This document shows positions 24,946 to 40,943 of a stretch of DNA of 64,000 bases, piece after piece (position 1 is the stretch's first letter; every line of letters starts with the position of its first letter). The notes under the pieces were generated by a model, which was not told where the DNA came from, made no database searches, and worked only from the letters and a program-made list of their open reading frames with translations. The DNA lies in the NCBI GenBank assembly GCA_002010305.1, contig MTND01000005.1, forward strand, positions 1 through 64,000, in the 5' to 3' direction. A program made the translations under genes and the position numbers. The stretch is from Archaeoglobi archaeon JdFR-42. Lineage in GTDB: Archaea; Halobacteriota; Archaeoglobi; Archaeoglobales; JdFR-42.

Positions 24946-26850
24946 TCATTTGAAACCTGACAGTCTGAGTGCGTTGAGGATTACAGCAAGGCTCAGACCC
25001 ATATCTCCAATGGCCACAGCCATCCACAGGGTTATCCATCCTCCGATTGCAAGGACTGCAAAGGATCCTTTAATCAATATAGATGCAGAGATGTTGGTTT
25101 TCACGACATCCATAGTCTTATTGCCTAGTTTGACTAGATATGGGATTTTTGAAAGATCATCGTGTAGGAGTGACACATCCGCAGTCTCTATAGCCACATC
25201 ACTCCCCATGGCCCCCATGGCTATCCCCACATCAGCCTCAGCTAGGGCAACTGCATCATTAATTCCGTCACCCGCCATGGCCACTCCTCTGTATTTTTGC
25301 TTGAGCTCCTGTATAATTTTAGATTTATCCTCCGGGAACAGTTCATAATAAATCTCATCGATTTCGATGGCTTCTCCCACCTTTTCTGCCACTTGTTTGT
25401 TATCACCTGTAAGCATGATGGTTTTAATGCCCATTTCTCTCAATGAGGCTATAACATGAGCGGCATCCTCTCTCGTCTTGTCCCGTATGAGTATCGCCCC
25501 CAATACTCTGTCTTTTGTTCCTATTACAATACTGAAACCATTGGAATCTTCATAAAGATCCTCAGGAATGGATTCCATCAGATCTGGCCTACCAATCCTG
25601 TATTCGATTCCTTCTATGACTCCAACCACTCCACTACCTGCTATTGCTCTGAAATCATCTACTTTTTTGAGAGTTATCCCCTCTAATTCCGCTTTTTTGA
25701 CAATGGCTCTTGCAATGGGGTGTTCTGATAGCGCCTCCAGAGAAGCCGCGATAGAGAGAACTTCACTGGCGTCAATTTCATCCAGAGTAACTATTTTTGA
25801 CACTTCAAGTTTCCCTTCTGTAAGAGTTCCAGTTTTATCGAGGGCAAAAGCCTCGATTTTATCCAATCTTTCGATTACATTGCTCCCTTTAATGAGGACT
25901 CCATTTTTTGCGGCTCCAGTAATGGCAGAAACCATGGATACCGGAGTGGAGATTGCAAGGGCACATGGACAGGAAACCACCAGCAGGACCAGAGCCCTAT
26001 AGATCCATACTTCAAGGGGTTCTCCGAAAATGAAAGTCGGGATTATTGCAGTGAGTATAGCTAGAAAGATCACTGCTGGAGTATAGTAATGGGCAAATTT
26101 GTCTATGAATTTCTCTGTTTGAGACTTTCTTTTTTGGGCGTTTTCAACAAGTTTTGTTATTCTTGCAAGTAAACTGTCTTTCGACTCTTTTTCAACCCGT
26201 ATTTCGAAGTATCCGTCAAGATTGATGGTTCCAGCATAGACATAATCGTTTTCTCTTTTTCTAACAGGTACACTCTCTCCTGTTAGGTGAGATTCATCTA
26301 CGTGGCTCTCTCCTTTAATCACAACTCCATCCAGAGGTATTTTCTCTCCCGGTCTGATGACCACGATCTCTCCTACCCTAACATCGTGGACATGCACCCT
26401 TGTCTCTTTGCCTTTTCTCAAAACAGATGCAATCGAAGGAGCTGTTTTAAGCAACTCCCGGATAGAATACTTGGATTTTCGTCCAGCATATTCCTCAAGG
26501 TACTCGGCTATACTGAACAGAAGGATAACAGCAGCCCCCTCTTCTCCATGACCAATAAGAAATGCACCCAGAGCTGCTATAGTTATTAAAAAATTTATGG
26601 AGATCTTTTTTTTGAAAAGATTCCCAACTCCGTTTATTATGAGCTCTTTTCCCGATAGAATGACTACTGAAAGGAAAAATACCTGAAAAAGTAGTGTATA
26701 TTGTGTAAAGGCCTCGAACAGTAATCCTGCCAGTAAAAGAGGGATAGACAGAAGTATTCTTTTCATTTTACTGGTGTTCCAGAATTCCAGATCTATCTCT
26801 TCATCTTCATCTAGGCTCTCATCAAATGCACAGGTTTCACATTCTACCAT
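24946..26850 (-). CDS. P1B-type heavy-metal ATPase (Zn/Cd/Pb type)
   Basis: SCPCALAIST, DKTGTLTEG, SEHPIA, GDGINDAVAL; N-terminal CETC plus acidic stretch, no HMA domain; adjacent to CadC-like regulator. Confidence 0.9.
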   Translation of the reverse strand: MVECETCAFDESLDEDEEIDLEFWNTSKMKRILLSIPLLLAGLLFEAFTQYTLLFQVFFLSVVILSGKELIINGVGNLFKKKISINFLITIAALGAFLIGHGEEGAAVILLFSIAEYLEEYAGRKSKYSIRELLKTAPSIASVLRKGKETRVHVHDVRVGEIVVIRPGEKIPLDGVVIKGESHVDESHLTGESVPVRKRENDYVYAGTINLDGYFEIRVEKESKDSLLARITKLVENAQKRKSQTEKFIDKFAHYYTPAVIFLAILTAIIPTFIFGEPLEVWIYRALVLLVVSCPCALAISTPVSMVSAITGAAKNGVLIKGSNVIERLDKIEAFALDKTGTLTEGKLEVSKIVTLDEIDASEVLSIAASLEALSEHPIARAIVKKAELEGITLKKVDDFRAIAGSGVVGVIEGIEYRIGRPDLMESIPEDLYEDSNGFSIVIGTKDRVLGAILIRDKTREDAAHVIASLREMGIKTIMLTGDNKQVAEKVGEAIEIDEIYYELFPEDKSKIIQELKQKYRGVAMAGDGINDAVALAEADVGIAMGAMGSDVAIETADVSLLHDDLSKIPYLVKLGNKTMDVVKTNISASILIKGSFAVLAIGGWITLWMAVAIGDMGLSLAVILNALRLSGFK

Positions 26851-26855
26851 TTGTG

Positions 26856-27224
26856 TCACCTCTCTTCCTGCACATGTTCGATGCAACTGGAAATTAGATC
26901 AGTGATATGATGGTCATCTAAAGAATACAGAACCATCTTACCCTCTTTTTTATGTTTGACCAATCTCAGATTCCGTAAGATTCTGAGATGATGAGATACA
27001 GCTGAGACACTCATGTTGATCAGTTTGGCGAGATCACATACACATAATTCTTCAATTGACAAAGAATACATGATTTTCATCCTCGTTGGGTCTCCGAGAG
27101 CTTTAAAAATCTCAGAAACATCACTAACGTCCTCCTCTTCTATCATTTTTTCTTCTACTCGTCTCACTCTATCTTCATGAATATATTCGACCTCACATTT
27201 CACATTATTTGAATGATTGTTCAA
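26856..27224 (-). CDS. ArsR/SmtB-family metal sensor, CadC-like
   Basis: ELCVCDLA metal site motif in the HTH helix, SAVSHHLRILRNLRLV, N-terminal Cys as in CadC. Confidence 0.88.
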   Translation of the reverse strand: MNNHSNNVKCEVEYIHEDRVRRVEEKMIEEEDVSDVSEIFKALGDPTRMKIMYSLSIEELCVCDLAKLINMSVSAVSHHLRILRNLRLVKHKKEGKMVLYSLDDHHITDLISSCIEHVQEER

Positions 27225-32242: not shown

Positions 32243-32522
32243 AGTCTCATTAATTTGTCACTGACTATCTACTCTTTTAACTCTCTGTATGGAGCTTAAA
32301 ATGCAATATTATGTGTAATTTACAGGATGTGTTTAAGAGAATTTAAGACTATCTTTTGGTTTCTTGCGTAAAATTAAACGACTAAAACCTAGGTCTCATG
32401 ACTTGTTATTAGAATACGAAATTGCGGAGATAGTTGTATAGATAGGTCGTCAGGAAGTAGAAAGAAAGGTGAATGAATGTGGAATACCTCAATTGACTAA
32501 AACACCGGTATGTTTATATATA

Positions 32523-32543
32523 ATATATCGTATTATGATATAT
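32523..32543. promoter_or_regulatory. Shared operator candidate, site 1
   Basis: ATATATC-GTATTAT-GATATAT just after a TATA-like TTTATATA and 10 bp before the ATG. Confidence 0.65.
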
Positions 32544-32553
32544 CGAGTTTAAT

Positions 32554-32763
32554 ATGAGGGAACTGATGCGTATGAGATGTAACACATGTGGTATGAAAAT
32601 CAAAGACGAAGAAATTATCGAGGGAATAGATGGTAGACTGTACTATTTCTGCTGTGATGGTTGTCGGGATCTCTCCATATGCAAAAGAGTGAAAATTGGA
32701 GAAAAACTGAAAAAGAGAGTTAGTCTGATATATGGTAGGACACGAGTTAAAATTCAAGACTAA
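32554..32763 (+). CDS. Small TRASH/YHS-type metal-binding protein
   Basis: 69 aa, MRCNTCGMKI...YYFCCDGCRDL. Confidence 0.75.
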   Translation: MRELMRMRCNTCGMKIKDEEIIEGIDGRLYYFCCDGCRDLSICKRVKIGEKLKKRVSLIYGRTRVKIQD

Positions 32764-32779
32764 AGTGGAGGTTAGAGAT

Positions 32780-33160
32780 ATGTATGGCTATGGAAAACAT
32801 GTTGATATGGATTTTAAAAGTGCAGTAAAAAAGACTATAGAAGAGCTTCAAAAAGAAGGCTTTGGGGTTCTGACTGAAATTGATGTAAAAGCCACTTTGA
32901 AAGCAAAACTAGGAGTTGATTATGAGGATTATCTGATCCTTGGAGCATGCAATCCACCCTTTGCTCATAAAGCCCTTAACGCGGAGAAAGAGGTGGGATT
33001 GCTCCTTCCATGTAATGTAATTGTATATAGGGATGGAGATAAAACCCACGTCTCAGCAATTCTGCCAACACAAGCTATGAGTATGGTAGAAAATGAAAGT
33101 TTGAAGAGAGTCGCAGAGGAAGTGGAAGATAAGCTTAAGAAAGTAATCGATTCTATTTGA
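32780..33160 (+). CDS. DUF302-family protein
   Basis: AVKKTIEELQKEGFGVLTEIDVKATLKAKLG, YLILGACNPPFAHKAL, LLPCNVIVY; start after GGAGG. Confidence 0.85.
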   Translation: MYGYGKHVDMDFKSAVKKTIEELQKEGFGVLTEIDVKATLKAKLGVDYEDYLILGACNPPFAHKALNAEKEVGLLLPCNVIVYRDGDKTHVSAILPTQAMSMVENESLKRVAEEVEDKLKKVIDSI

Positions 33161-33213
33161 AATTGAACTTTTCTTATAGGGGTATGAAGCTGGATAAAGA
33201 GGAGAGGTAATTG

Positions 33214-33420
33214 ATGGATAAAGTAAAGTCTGATGTACAGGATGTAGCAGTTGAGGAGCAACAGCATGAGAATATAGATGTGCAGACCAGCCCAGAAGGA
33301 GGGAGGGGGAGCTGCGGTTCTCATTCCAGACATAGTGGCTGTGGAATGCATGGTGGATGGATGAGGTGGGTGTGGATTGGTATCTTGGGATATTTTATCG
33401 TTTCCTATTTCCTGAGATGA
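33214..33420 (+). CDS. Small single-TM protein with His/Cys-rich segment
   Basis: 68 aa, GSCGSHSRHSGCGMHGGW followed by one C-terminal TM helix; SD GGAGAGG. Confidence 0.6.
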   Translation: MDKVKSDVQDVAVEEQQHENIDVQTSPEGGRGSCGSHSRHSGCGMHGGWMRWVWIGILGYFIVSYFLR

Positions 33421-33543
33421 TGGTATACGAAAAATTTCCTGTCATCTGTTTCTTTTAACTTCTTTCTATAGTAATTTGAGTTCAGATTTTAATGGAGTCA
33501 TCTAAACGTGTTGAATAGTTTTTCTAGCTAGGATCTATAGACG

Positions 33544-33564
33544 ATATATTTATATACGATATAT
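33544..33564. promoter_or_regulatory. Shared operator candidate, site 2
   Basis: ATATATT-TATATAC-GATATAT, 33 bp upstream of the CARDB-like gene. Confidence 0.65.
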
Positions 33565-33597
33565 CAAATACAGATATGGTATGAGTAGGAAGGGGGT

Positions 33598-35082
33598 ATG
33601 ATGAACCGTACATTATCGAAGAACAATGTGATGTGGAAGAAGAATCTTAAAAAAGCACCATTTTTGTTAATAATGCTTATATTTGCAGGCTCTTCTCTCG
33701 TCTCAGGTGAAGATGTCATCTCTGCTAAATACTCCATATATCCGGAGATTATAACTCCCGGTAGTGTTGGGTATATTGAACTGACTTTTACCAATTCTGG
33801 AAGTGAGGTGGTAGAGGATCTTTCCATATTCTTTATTAAACTAGAAAAAGGGATCGTAATTCAGGACTCTTCGGAGACTTATAGTCTGGGCAGTCTTTAT
33901 CCTGGAAAAACCAAGTCCATCGTTCTCAAATTCAGTATTCCAGAGACTACTTTACCAGGCTATTATGTAGTGGAGCTTTCAGTAAAAGGCTCATATCTGG
34001 GTTATAGTAGCAGTTACCGGTATGATATCCCCATACAGGTTCAACGAGAAAATTTTTTGAAACTGAAATTGATCCCCGAGGTCGTTGAGGCTGAGAGGAT
34101 CTCTACTGTATCTCTTTTTGTTGAGAATACAGGTAAGGACGATCTTAGAGAGATATATATTGAGTGGGATAGTAAGAATGTAGTACCAATCGGAGAGTCT
34201 GCTAAATTCTATCTATCGTCTTTGAAACCCGGAGAACAGAAGGAACTGAAACTGGATATTAAGGCAGAGAGAAATGTAAAAACTGCTCTTTTAAATTTTT
34301 CTGTGAAATATATGGATTCAACAGGTAACCCAGAAAGCGACTTCTATCAAATTGGATTGGGTGTGAAGAGTGGAAAAGAAGATTATCTAAAAATATCTCA
34401 AACTCCAGCCTTACTGAATATTGGAACAGAAGGATCTATATCTATAGAGATCTTCAATGAAGGAGATGAAGGCTTAGAGGACATTTTACTTGTGTGGAGT
34501 GGGAACGGTATTATTCCTGTTTCCTCGAATATAAAGTATGTAGGATCTCTTGGTCCAGGAGAAAGAAAATCTGTACTTATGGATGTGTTTATTGACGAAA
34601 ACATAGAACCAGGTTATTATCCCATCACAATTAGGGCGGTTTATGAAGACTCGTCAGGCACTGTCCATAGGTCAAACCATACTATTGGTGTAAAAATTCA
34701 GGGAACTGTTGATCTGGTTGTAACTATTTTCAGAGCTGAGGCAGATAAGCTTTTTATTTCTATAGCCAATACTGGTAATGCAGCAGCAAAGAACCTTGTG
34801 GTTTATGCAAGATCTCCATATGGAAACACGGAGACTTTCTTAGGAGATATGAAGCCCGGAGATGAAGAGATAATCGAGTTGGATCAGCAAGGGATGGACA
34901 CATCTAAACCACATACGATAAATCTGAAGATGATATTCAGGGATGTGTTTGGTGAGAAAATAACTGTTGATAAGGAAATAACCGTTTCTGTTCATGAGCA
35001 AAGCTTTTCCGTTGTGTGGGTGGGAGTAGGAACAGCAATACTTCTCTTGCTGACAGCTGTTCTCTTTTGGAGGAAAAGATAA
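33598..35082 (+). CDS. Secreted, C-terminally anchored protein with repeated CARDB/NPCBM-associated (Ig-like) domains
   Basis: N-terminal signal segment, repeated 'I/VENTGKDDL / NEGDEGLED / SLxPGExK' units, C-terminal TM. Confidence 0.7.
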   Translation: MMNRTLSKNNVMWKKNLKKAPFLLIMLIFAGSSLVSGEDVISAKYSIYPEIITPGSVGYIELTFTNSGSEVVEDLSIFFIKLEKGIVIQDSSETYSLGSLYPGKTKSIVLKFSIPETTLPGYYVVELSVKGSYLGYSSSYRYDIPIQVQRENFLKLKLIPEVVEAERISTVSLFVENTGKDDLREIYIEWDSKNVVPIGESAKFYLSSLKPGEQKELKLDIKAERNVKTALLNFSVKYMDSTGNPESDFYQIGLGVKSGKEDYLKISQTPALLNIGTEGSISIEIFNEGDEGLEDILLVWSGNGIIPVSSNIKYVGSLGPGERKSVLMDVFIDENIEPGYYPITIRAVYEDSSGTVHRSNHTIGVKIQGTVDLVVTIFRAEADKLFISIANTGNAAAKNLVVYARSPYGNTETFLGDMKPGDEEIIELDQQGMDTSKPHTINLKMIFRDVFGEKITVDKEITVSVHEQSFSVVWVGVGTAILLLLTAVLFWRKR

Positions 35083-35084
35083 AT

Positions 35085-36215
35085 ATGGTTTCAATAGCCA
35101 GAAAAAATCTCTTTCATGACAGAGGAAGGCTGATAATAAGTGTAGGTGGTGTGGCTTTCGCTACTATGCTCATCTTAACTTTAACTGGAGTGTATTATGG
35201 TGTTATAGAGATGTCCACTGGATATCTGAGAGAGACTAATGCAGATCTGTGGGTGGGGCAAGAAGGTATCCACGATACCTGGCATACATATTCTCTTCTT
35301 CCACGAGGACTTGAAGACGAGATATTGAGTGTAGGGGGTGTTAAAGAGGTTTATGGATTTGTGGGGCGAGCTGTAAGGGCCGAGATCTCTCAGATATCTG
35401 ATGAAGAGAAGACTGTTTTTGTGGTAGGGTTCGATACTAGCAGTGGAGTTGGTGGTCCTTGGAAAATAATTAAGGGTAAAAAGATTCCGAGATCAGGTCA
35501 AGTTATAGTGGATCGGGTGTTCTCTGTCAGGAATGGTATAGAGATCGGAGATAGGCTAACAGTTGGGGGGAAAGAACTTACCGTGGTTGGGATCTCTGAT
35601 GGCACTTTTCTACTCGTGTATTCTTATATTTTTGTTACAGAAGAGGATGCTATGGAGATTTTTGGGGCGAAGGGTTTCCTGAACTATTATATGGTGGAAG
35701 TGGAAGACCCTATTTTTTCAAAAAAAATTGCCAAAAATATCGAAGATAGGCTAGAGAAAACAGGAATAAAAGTGGATGTCCTGACAAGAGAGGAGTTTAT
35801 AGACAACCATAAAGAAGTCATTAACGATAGTTTCAATTCGATACTTCTTCCTCTAGTATTTATTGGATTTTTTATAGGAGTGACTGTCATCGGGTTAACT
35901 CTCTACACGGCAACTTTGGAAAAGATACGTGAATATGCCATCCTCAAGGCCATAGGGGCAAGAGGTACTTTCATGGTGAAAATTGTATTTGAGCAGTCAT
36001 TCATCATAGGACTCCTTGGATTTGGGGTAGGTCTTGGATTATCCATTTTTGCATCAGGATGGATTCCAAACATAGCTCCAGAATTTGCAGTAGTGATCAA
36101 CTTGAATACAATAATGCTGACTTTTCTTTCTTTGCTTGGAATGAGTGCAGTCGCATCGTTAATACCCATAAGAAAACTGGAAAAAGTCGATCCAGCAACA
36201 GTGTTTCAGGCGTAA
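35085..36215 (+). CDS. MacB/FtsX-type ABC transporter permease
   Basis: One N-terminal and three C-terminal TM segments with a large extracellular domain; start at 35085. Confidence 0.85.
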   Translation: MVSIARKNLFHDRGRLIISVGGVAFATMLILTLTGVYYGVIEMSTGYLRETNADLWVGQEGIHDTWHTYSLLPRGLEDEILSVGGVKEVYGFVGRAVRAEISQISDEEKTVFVVGFDTSSGVGGPWKIIKGKKIPRSGQVIVDRVFSVRNGIEIGDRLTVGGKELTVVGISDGTFLLVYSYIFVTEEDAMEIFGAKGFLNYYMVEVEDPIFSKKIAKNIEDRLEKTGIKVDVLTREEFIDNHKEVINDSFNSILLPLVFIGFFIGVTVIGLTLYTATLEKIREYAILKAIGARGTFMVKIVFEQSFIIGLLGFGVGLGLSIFASGWIPNIAPEFAVVINLNTIMLTFLSLLGMSAVASLIPIRKLEKVDPATVFQA

Positions 36216-36225
36216 TGGTGTTGAT

Positions 36226-36903
36226 ATGTTGTTGAGAGTTGAAAACCTTACAAAGATATACGGAACTGGAAGGACTGCGGTAAAAGCGGTTGATAATGTC
36301 TCTTTTAACCTTTCCAGAGGTGAGCTAATTCTCTTAATGGGTCCATCAGGATCGGGAAAAACTACTCTTCTCACACTGGTAAGTGGTTTATTAAGGCCTA
36401 CATCTGGCACTATATATATTGATTCGATAAGTATATCTAACTTAACTCAGAAAGAGCTTGCAAAAATTCGAATGAATAAAATAGGGTTCATATTTCAGCA
36501 TTTTAATCTACTCTCCTCTTTAACAGCCCTAGAGAATGTGATGGTGCCTTTTGTTATACAAGGTATCAAGGTGAGTGATGCCAGAAGAAGAGCTAAGGCC
36601 CTTCTGGTAGAATTTGGTCTTGAAGACAGATTGGATCACAAACCGAAGGATCTTTCGGGGGGTGAACAGCAGAGGGTGGCTGTTGCCAGGGCCATGGTTA
36701 CCAATCCAGATATCATCATAGCAGATGAGCCTACTGCAAACTTGGATTCGAAAAAAGGAAAGGATGTTATGGAGCTTATCTACAAAAAGGTAAAGGAGGG
36801 AAGGGGGGCGCTCATTGCGAGTCATGATCCAAGGATCTTGGATTTTGCAGACGGTATACTCTACATGGAAGATGGAAAATTGAGGGAGGATAATAGAACA
36901 TAG
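36226..36903 (+). CDS. ABC transporter ATP-binding protein (LolD/MacB type)
   Basis: GPSGSGKTTLL, LSGGEQQRVAVARAM, ADEPTANLD. Confidence 0.93.
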   Translation: MLLRVENLTKIYGTGRTAVKAVDNVSFNLSRGELILLMGPSGSGKTTLLTLVSGLLRPTSGTIYIDSISISNLTQKELAKIRMNKIGFIFQHFNLLSSLTALENVMVPFVIQGIKVSDARRRAKALLVEFGLEDRLDHKPKDLSGGEQQRVAVARAMVTNPDIIIADEPTANLDSKKGKDVMELIYKKVKEGRGALIASHDPRILDFADGILYMEDGKLREDNRT

Positions 36904-37104
36904 TAAATAGTAGATCTTAAGCCTTTTTGGGAAATGAGGTTATATCAACTTTTATGTAGAGATTGGTTGCCAGTCTTTTTATGTTTTTCACGTGGTGTTA
37001 GATCTCTCTTGTCTCTCACCATAGAGACATTTATCATAATTGATTCTGTCTTATTCTCCGGTATTTTTTCAATATAGGCTCTTCTTAGGCGTTAAACTTA
37101 TATA

Positions 37105-37125
37105 TTATATCAAAATACGATATAT
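37105..37125. promoter_or_regulatory. Shared operator candidate, site 3
   Basis: TTATATC-AAAATAC-GATATAT, ends 8 bp before the copA ATG. Confidence 0.65.
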
Positions 37126-37133
37126 TGATAGTC

Positions 37134-39617
37134 ATGAGAGAAGTAACACTGAAAATTACTGGAATGAGTTGTGCAACATGTGCACAAACAATAACCAAAG
37201 TATTAATGAAACTCGATGGAGTTGAGAAAGTCGAGGTAAATTTAGCAAGTGAAAAAGCGGTTATTCATTATAATCCTGATAAAATTGACCTTGAGACAAT
37301 CATCCAAGAGATTGAAAAAGTTGGATATGGGGTCATCAGAGACACCAGAGAAGTTGTGTTTAATATTACTGGTATGACCTGTGCCACATGTGTACAGACC
37401 ATTGAAAAAGTCACTAAGAAGATTCCGGGTGTGCTTGAAGCGACAGTAAATCTGAATGCTGAAAGAGGAAGGTTTGTGTATGATCCCACTCTTGTCACTT
37501 CTGAGGAGATTCGACAGGCTATTGAGAACATTGGATATACGGTTACAGGAATAGAAGAGGAAGAAGGAACTGATACAGAAAGAGAAGCACGAGAGAAGCA
37601 TATAGCCGTAATGAAGAAAAGATTGATAGTGGCAGCAGTAATTGGTGCTGTGGTCACTCTTCTCACTTATGGAGAATATATTGGTCTTCCTGTTGATGAT
37701 CCAACTCTGCTTCCGTGGGTATTGTGGGCAGAGTTCTTCTTAGCCACTCCTGTAATGTATTATTCCGGGAAAGGTATGTTTGCAGCTGCTTACAGAGCTT
37801 TGACACACAAAACTCTGAGTATGGATGTAATGTATTCTATGGGTGTTGGGTCTGCCTATGTAGCCAGTGTTTTTGCAACAATAGGCTTACTACCATCGGA
37901 TTTCGTGTTCTATGAAACTGCCGTACTGTTAATGGCGTTCCTTTTACTCGGAAGATTGCTTGAGGCAATTGCGAAAGGAAGGACTTCAGAGGCAATAAAG
38001 AAGCTCATGGGGTTACAGGCCAAGACAGCTGTTGTGATACGAGATGGACAGGAAGTTGAGATACCCATCAAAGATGTTAAAGTTGGGGACATTGTGGTGA
38101 TAAAGCCTGGAGAGAAAGTTCCTGTAGATGGAGTTGTTGTTGATGGGGAGAGTTATGTCGACGAGTCTATGATTACCGGAGAGCCCATACCCAACCTAAA
38201 AAAGAAAGGTGACGAGGTTATAGGAGCTACAATAAACAAGAATAGCGTGCTGAAAATTGAAGCAAAAAAAGTTGGGAAAGACACCCTTTTAGCTCAGATA
38301 ATAAAGCTGGTGGAAGAAGCTCAGAGTTCGAGACCACCAATTCAGAGGCTGGCTGATAGAATAATCACATATTTCATACCTACCGTGTTAGTGATTGCAA
38401 CAGTATCATTTACATATTGGTATTTCATAGCAGATATGCCCTCAGTGTTTGCTTTCGTAACTTTGGTTTCTGTGCTTGTTATTGCATGTCCATGTGCTTT
38501 TGGGCTTGCTACCCCAACAGCTCTTACAGTGGGAATGGGAAAAGGAGCAGAATCCGGGATTCTCATTAAAAATGGAGAAGCACTGGAGCTTGCAAGAAAT
38601 GTGACAATTGTCATCTTTGATAAAACTGGAACTTTGACCATAGGGAAGCCAGAAGTAACGGATGTAGTTACCTTTAGTAAAGATGAGGATGAAGTGCTAA
38701 AAATAGTTGCCTCAGCGGAGAAGGGTTCAGAACATCCGTTGGCGGATGCTGTTGTGAGGAAGGCAAAGGAAAAAGCACTAGATATTGTGGATCCAGAAGA
38801 GTTTGAGGCAATCACAGGAAAAGGAGTAAAAGCAAAGTTAAATGGTTCAACGATTTTGATTGGGAATAGAAAATTAATGGAAGAAAACGGATATAAAATT
38901 GAAGACCATATGGAACAGGAAATACAGAGACTTGAAAAAGGGGCGAAGACTGCCATAATCGTTGCTGTTGATGGAACGATTGTGGGAGTTATAGGAATTG
39001 CGGATATGGTGAAAGATACCGCAATTGAGACCATCAACCATCTTCATAAAATGGGAAGGAAAGTTGCCATGATTACCGGAGATAACAGGAGAACGGCGGA
39101 AGCCATTGCCAGACAGCTTAAGATAGACAGGGTTATGGCTGAAGTTCTGCCACAGGATAAGGCAAATGAGGTGAAAAGACTTCAGGATGAAGGTGAAATA
39201 GTGGCTTTTGTGGGAGATGGGATTAATGATGCTCCAGCCCTTGCTCAGGCAGAAGTCGGCATAGCAATTGGAAGTGGAACAGACATTGCCATTGAATCTG
39301 GAGAAATAGTCCTGATAAAAGATGATCTGAGAGATGTGGTTGCTGGTATTCAGCTAAGTGCTAAAACACTGGGTAAAATAAAGCAGAATTTATTCTGGGC
39401 GATGATTTACAATACAATCCTGATTCCTGTTGCCGCTGGAGTGTTATACCCATTCACTGGAATCACTTTCCAGCCTGAATGGGCCGGAGCCGCTATGGCC
39501 ATCAGCTCAGTCTCAGTGGTTACCAACTCGTTGCTTCTGAAGAGATATCATCCTGAGATAAAGAAGAAAGTTGTTTCTAAAGAGGTTACTCCTGGAGTGG
39601 CTCCTACTCCGACATGA
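37134..39617 (+). CDS. copA: Copper-transporting P1B-type ATPase with two N-terminal HMA domains
   Basis: Two GMxCxxC domains, [33 protein letters not shown]. Confidence 0.93.
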
Positions 39618-40195: not shown

Positions 40196-40360
40196 ATGGC
40201 AATAGATCCGGTTTGTGGAATGGAAGTGGATGAAAAAACAGCAAAATTCAAAACAGAATATAAGGGGGATACTTATTATTTCTGCGCCCCCGGATGTAAG
40301 TATATGTTCGAGGAGGATCCAGAAAAGTATCTGAGAGAAGGGCCTGTGGGTATGGAATAG
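40196..40360 (+). CDS. YHS-domain small metal-binding protein
   Basis: MAIDPVCGMEVDEKTAKFKTEYKGDTYYFCAPGCKYMFEEDPEKYLREGPVGME* with SD AGGAGGTG; absent from the ORF track because under 60 aa. Confidence 0.88.
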   Translation: MAIDPVCGMEVDEKTAKFKTEYKGDTYYFCAPGCKYMFEEDPEKYLREGPVGME

Positions 40361-40807: not shown

Positions 40808-40943
40808 TTGTCAACATAAGTTGACAAATTGTAAAGCAATACTTTACAATAGTTGTCAACATAAGTTGACAAATTGTAAAGCAATACTTTACAATAGTTG
40901 TCAACATAAGTTGACAAATTGGTAAACCTGCGATTTGCAATAT
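40808..40943. repeat. Tandem array of the two-hairpin repeat (copy D), 45-bp period
   Basis: TTGTCAACATAAGTTGACAAATTGTAAAGCAATACTTTACAATAG twice in full, then TTGTCAACATAAGTTGACAA plus a degenerate ATTGGTAAACCTGCGATTTGCAAT. Confidence 0.9.

Follow-up and report, generated by a model that had tools for sequence, protein, structure and literature searches.

Gene organization of the copper island

The locus was analyzed within a 64-kb stretch of DNA, called here the window, which belongs to a genome of 2.15 Mb in 42 contigs, 99.6% complete (G000), from an archaeon in the Archaeoglobus group. Three units on the + strand make up a copper island. The first comprises the genes of a TRASH-domain protein of 69 aa devoid of HTH (32554..32763; PF24273, 1.9e-7), of a DUF302 protein (32732..33160; PF03625, 2.5e-25) whose orthologue in a second genus, G001, is 85% identical, and of a small protein with a Cys/His-rich middle and a hydrophobic C-terminal stretch, for which no Pfam match was obtained (33211..33420). 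The second unit encodes a secreted or membrane-anchored CARDB/NEW3 protein (33598..35082), an FtsX/MacB-type ABC permease (35085..36215; PF02687, PF12704) and an ABC ATPase of the LolD/DevA/MacB type (36226..36903; PF00005 and NCBIfam). The third is copA (37134..39617), whose product, a P1B ATPase of the Cu(I) type, contains two HMA domains and a CPC motif (PF00403, PF00122, PF00702; TIGR01511 above cut-off). In agreement with the preliminary description, the island genes include no obvious regulator. A small YHS-domain protein (40196-40360), encoded a short way past copA and a thioredoxin and lacking the box described below, is a possible further metal-handling gene. An acetylglutamate kinase-like gene (40979+) is closely preceded by a 45-bp tandem repeat (40808-40926; 2.6 copies, 98%), which is built of two palindromes, TTGTCAACATAAGTTGACAA and TTGTAAAGCAATACTTTACAA, and could be an operator array. 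No Rfam family was matched in the 64-kb window.

The connection of the ABC exporter with copper handling, proposed at the outset from the shared promoter motif, was examined through gene order. Among the other genomes searched, three, namely G032, G005 and G022, encode an orthologue of the CARDB protein (39-41% identity), and in all of them copA is immediately followed by the CARDB and FtsX permease genes. These are succeeded by the ABC ATPase gene in G032 and G022; for G005, the list of non-overlapping ORFs did not resolve this last gene. The copA-CARDB-FtsX order in three relatives thus sustains the copper link of the exporter independently of the motif. As for DUF302, a P1B ATPase was present nearby at only 22 of 80 loci from many phyla, with the CPC motif seen in the matched stretch of 11; DUF302 alone is therefore weak copper evidence, and its use as a general copper marker was rejected.

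A palindromic box pair in the three promoters

The three units had been described as sharing one operator, WTATATY-N7-GATATAT, and exact matches to this pattern were recovered at 32523-32543, 33544-33564 and 37105-37125, the first being readable on both strands. The shared pattern is thus retained, with a different repeating unit: an 8-bp palindromic box, GATATATC, which recurs at 15-bp steps. The ATAC end of the spacer, taken before as a common feature, is not fixed, since it is missing from the G001 and Rieske sites presented below. On the + strand of the window, [AG][AT]TATAT[CT] box pairs less than 40 bp apart occur only three times, each with a spacing of exactly 15 bp, and a search based on the 15-bp spacing lists the same three places.

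Upstream of the TRASH-DUF302 unit, the TATA box TTTATATA (32513..32520, +), which is kept in G001, is followed by operator 1, AATATATC-N7-GATATATC (32522..32544, +). In the case of the CARDB-ABC unit, the exact match at 33544-33564 overlaps the TATA box TTTATATA (33549..33556, +). For this reason, and with the register set from the TATA box, operator 2 was placed about 15 bp further than initially described, as GATATATC-AAATACA-GATATGGT (33558..33580, +); an extra box, GATATATT (33543-33550, +), remains in its vicinity and overlaps the TATA box. The copA promoter contains the TATA box CTTATATA (37097..37104, +), represented in G001 by ATTATATA, and operator 3, ATTATATC-N7-GATATATT (37104..37126, +). 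Relative to the first base of the TATA box, sites 1 and 2 have box starts at +9 and +24, and site 3 at +7 and +22, so that the box spacing is constant though the TATA spacing differs. The start codons are located 7-20 bases past the last box, and the element would therefore span the region in which RNA polymerase is loaded. In archaeal repressors, operators just behind the TATA box fit polymerase exclusion. The position of the sites is, as first suggested, compatible with repression; we infer the sign of regulation itself.

Rarity of the element

The arms of the pattern are AT-rich and overlap TATA-like sequence, and a chance likeness among AT-rich promoters had to be weighed. Markov models of order 1, 3 and 4 predict 0.05, 0.0 and 0.025 distinct perfect matches per 64 kb, respectively. 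When the 100-nt promoters were dinucleotide-shuffled, a perfect match arose with P values of 0.00025, 0.00075 and 0.0004 for sites 1, 2 and 3. Genome-wide specificity was judged by pattern searches. The initial pattern has five distinct perfect matches in the 2.15 Mb of G000, three of them inside 4.6 kb, a clustering with a probability of about 9e-5; matches of equal quality in numerous unrelated AT-rich promoters, which would have spoken against the element, were thus not encountered. The refined pattern RNTATATCN7GAYATRNY, partly tuned on the sites that it later matched, is confined in G000 to the three island promoters, C10:5472-5509 and C32:306, and its reversed control gave 0. When one mismatch was allowed in a looser pattern, 19 matches against 2 for the control were counted in G000 and 9 against 0 in G001. 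In the phylum, a stricter variant of this looser pattern is present in 17 of 148 genomes and occupies more than one distinct place in G000 only. The other relatives gave no comparable multi-site perfect-match signal, although one-mismatch counts of similar size were obtained in a few AT-rich genomes. A fortuitous origin is opposed by the shuffles, the Markov models, the counts over whole genomes, the reversed controls and the 148 other genomes of the phylum; we regard it as extremely improbable, and it is refuted at the level of counts. The promoters of the TRASH-DUF302 unit, the CARDB-ABC unit and copA have one element in common, and this shared cis-element is well supported as real and lineage-specific.

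Two further matches in G000 were set aside. A perfect match to the initial pattern at C2:210966 was not taken as a target, the next gene being more than 200 bp away. A site with 1 mismatch near CbtB (C1:213478) is probably due to chance, since the likely orthologous regulator locus in G001 (L256) has no site at up to 2 mismatches.

Conservation of the element in a second genus

G001 (1.8 Mb, 95% complete) is the sole other genome of the G000 family among the relatives returned, and a DUF302 scan of genome contigs revealed no additional members; family-level conservation rests on these two genomes. In G001, the DUF302 unit and copA are found together and the CARDB-ABC genes are absent there. 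In its 1.8 Mb, RNTATATYN7GATATATY is matched perfectly only once, in front of the orthologous DUF302 unit, whose promoter reads TTTATATAT-GATATATC-N7-GATATACG. By direct reading, the TRASH gene of this unit is a shortened remnant, and a readable remnant of the C-terminal part of the small protein lies behind DUF302. The G001 copA promoter has retained the TATA box and GATATATTGATAG; its upstream box, TATATGTC, contains two mismatches and represents a weaker form. In the same genome, a strict match accompanied by a TATA box precedes an exported CxxCH protein (C28:3550-3572; L107).

These data also bear on the idea that the three sites resemble each other as a by-product of the recent duplication of one promoter, with no shared regulation. 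The site-2 promoter is indeed similar to the G001 DUF302 promoter, TATA region included. In the alignments made, however, similarity is limited to the TATA box and the boxes: between site 1 and the G001 DUF302 promoter these align and the upstream flank hardly does. Furthermore, the box spacing was kept where the TATA spacing changed, and the element was kept in a second genus. Duplication is thus a very improbable explanation.

Probable targets outside the island

In G000, three boxes at 15-bp spacing are located directly before a gene coding for a TAT-type Rieske Fe-S protein (C10:5472-5512, gene start 5512; L022). This arrangement is absent from the 24 relatives searched. A Rieske paralogue, 85% identical and placed before cytochrome b genes (C1:164123), is devoid of boxes. 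The C10 gene is likely a target, and the operator, initially described for the three island promoters, which do share it, would therefore serve at least one gene beyond the island. A strict match (C32:306-328; L023) was also noted close to a truncated ORF for a secreted protein, located where a contig ends.

The Rieske gene has no obvious copper role, and the signal might therefore be redox or another metal. The shared operator would then be real and would belong to a redox-, oxygen- or other-metal-responsive regulator over copA, DUF302, the exporter and exported redox proteins. That the best site outside the island, with its three boxes, precedes the TAT-type Rieske gene, and that a 1-mismatch site precedes a CxxCH-containing exported protein in G001, speak for such a regulator. 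Against it, three of the five strict sites of G000 are in the copper island, the only perfect site of G001 is the DUF302 promoter, and the 85%-identical Rieske paralogue beside cytochrome b is boxless, which indicates that the regulon does not consist of electron-transport genes as a class. We consider a signal other than copper rather unlikely.

Comparison with known regulators

CopR (Lrp HTH plus TRASH; PF08394) was detected above the Pfam cut-off in 20 of 60 relatives, often adjoining copA; in the G032 island it is divergent from copA. No CopR was found by PF08394 in G000 or G001. With the G032 CopR as query, the best matches in both genomes are restricted to the HTH part (29-40% identity), and a CopR having lost its TRASH domain was rejected as a candidate, no close HTH match being present. 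In the relatives, 13 of the 19 regions upstream of CopR contain the motif TTNNCANNNTGNNAA at up to 1 mismatch, where chance would give about 8% per region, and none of the 19 contains a GATATATC-type box pair. Conversely, TTNNCANNNTGNNAA was found at up to 1 mismatch in none of the five G000 and G001 promoters. The TTNNCANNNTGNNAA-type motif agrees with the CopR motif published for P. furiosus, TTNNCAWWWTGNNAA, which is directly upstream of the BRE (PMC7830388). The island resembles the archaeal CopR/copA system (P. furiosus copR-copA, PF0740 = CopA) in that a copper P1B-ATPase gene carries a palindromic near-promoter element and a TRASH domain is encoded in the locus. It differs by the lack of a CopR gene in G000 and G001, by a local TRASH protein without HTH, and by GATATATC boxes 15 bp apart in place of TTNNCAWWWTGNNAA.

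The boxes could also be a positive element or a core-promoter variant that aids TBP/TFB, melting or an activator, with no repressor involved. They are TATA-like and lie in the core promoter, and CopR of P. furiosus is able to activate transcription (PMC7830388). The P. furiosus motif is, however, upstream of the BRE, whereas the sites described here are downstream of the TATA box; moreover, a fixed 15-bp phasing, a dyad symmetry and a restriction to few promoters are not core-promoter features. A positive role of the boxes thus appears distinctly unlikely.

In bacteria, CsoR, CopY and CueR ensure copper-responsive control of copA; their operators are not known to resemble the GATATATC element. 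CsoR (PF02583) was found in none of the 8 genomes searched, G000 and G001 included (controls positive, 6 of 14), and was rejected as the regulator, the protein being absent from both.

Of the metalloregulators, the one closest to the sites, at a distance of about 5 kb, is the ArsR of a unit with a Zn/Cd-type P1B ATPase (24946-27224), and its binding to the three sites was considered. In the promoter of this unit, the TATA box is immediately followed by another inverted repeat, ATTTGAACAATCATTCAAAT, and the G001 ArsR unit has the same layout with AATTGAACATTTGTTCAAAT; both promoters contain TTGAACA-type repeats and lack the GATATATC pair. The element shares with ArsR/SmtB operators of metal ATPase genes the location directly behind the TATA box and a P-type ATPase target, but differs from them in sequence and spacing, as illustrated by the TTGAACA-type inverted repeat of the ArsR unit in the window. 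Binding of this ArsR to the three sites is scarcely credible.

MetJ-type operators are arrays of short tandem 8-bp palindromic boxes with an 8-bp period. The element is likewise made of tandem 8-bp palindromes, with a period of 15 bp instead of 8, and the parallel is a lead. A search of the archaeal literature for GATATATC returned no relevant record.

Proposed regulation

We propose, with a probability of roughly 0.64, that the three sites are one operator through which a trans-acting repressor, released by Cu/Ag, controls the three units and stands in for CopR. The operator would consist of two, sometimes three, GATATATC boxes at 15-bp spacing, 7-9 bp after the TATA start. A putative regulator, dimeric or oligomeric and encoded at another place in the genome, would bind these boxes and block the recruitment of RNA polymerase. 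A rise in Cu(I)/Ag(I) would make the regulator release the DNA, and copA, the TRASH-DUF302 unit and the CARDB-FtsX-ABC exporter would then be switched on together. Such a system would replace the archaeal CopR (Lrp+TRASH) circuit in the family of G000 and G001, which falls within Archaeoglobales. We infer protein binding, repression, copper as the signal, and the replacement of CopR rather than its never having been present.

The sole archaeal copper circuit found here among the relatives is CopR with its TTNNCA..TGNNAA operator. CopR is missing from G000 and G001 and the same element stands behind three promoters; the lineage therefore seems to have been rewired to another, putative copper-switch protein. 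Archaeal copper-gene control would be present here in a new version. More tentatively, a putative undescribed copper-responsive repressor might read the 15-bp-phased GATATATC boxes behind the TATA box instead of CopR, the stand-alone TRASH protein being possibly a detached sensing or relay part; we hold this combination to be possible, though doubtful.

With copA kept, CopR absent and a different conserved operator in place, the family offers a naturally occurring example of regulatory rewiring; the element provides a short and specific DNA bait for a putative archaeal metalloregulator. A copper role of the uncharacterised CARDB-FtsX-ABC exporter and of DUF302 gains support from these results.
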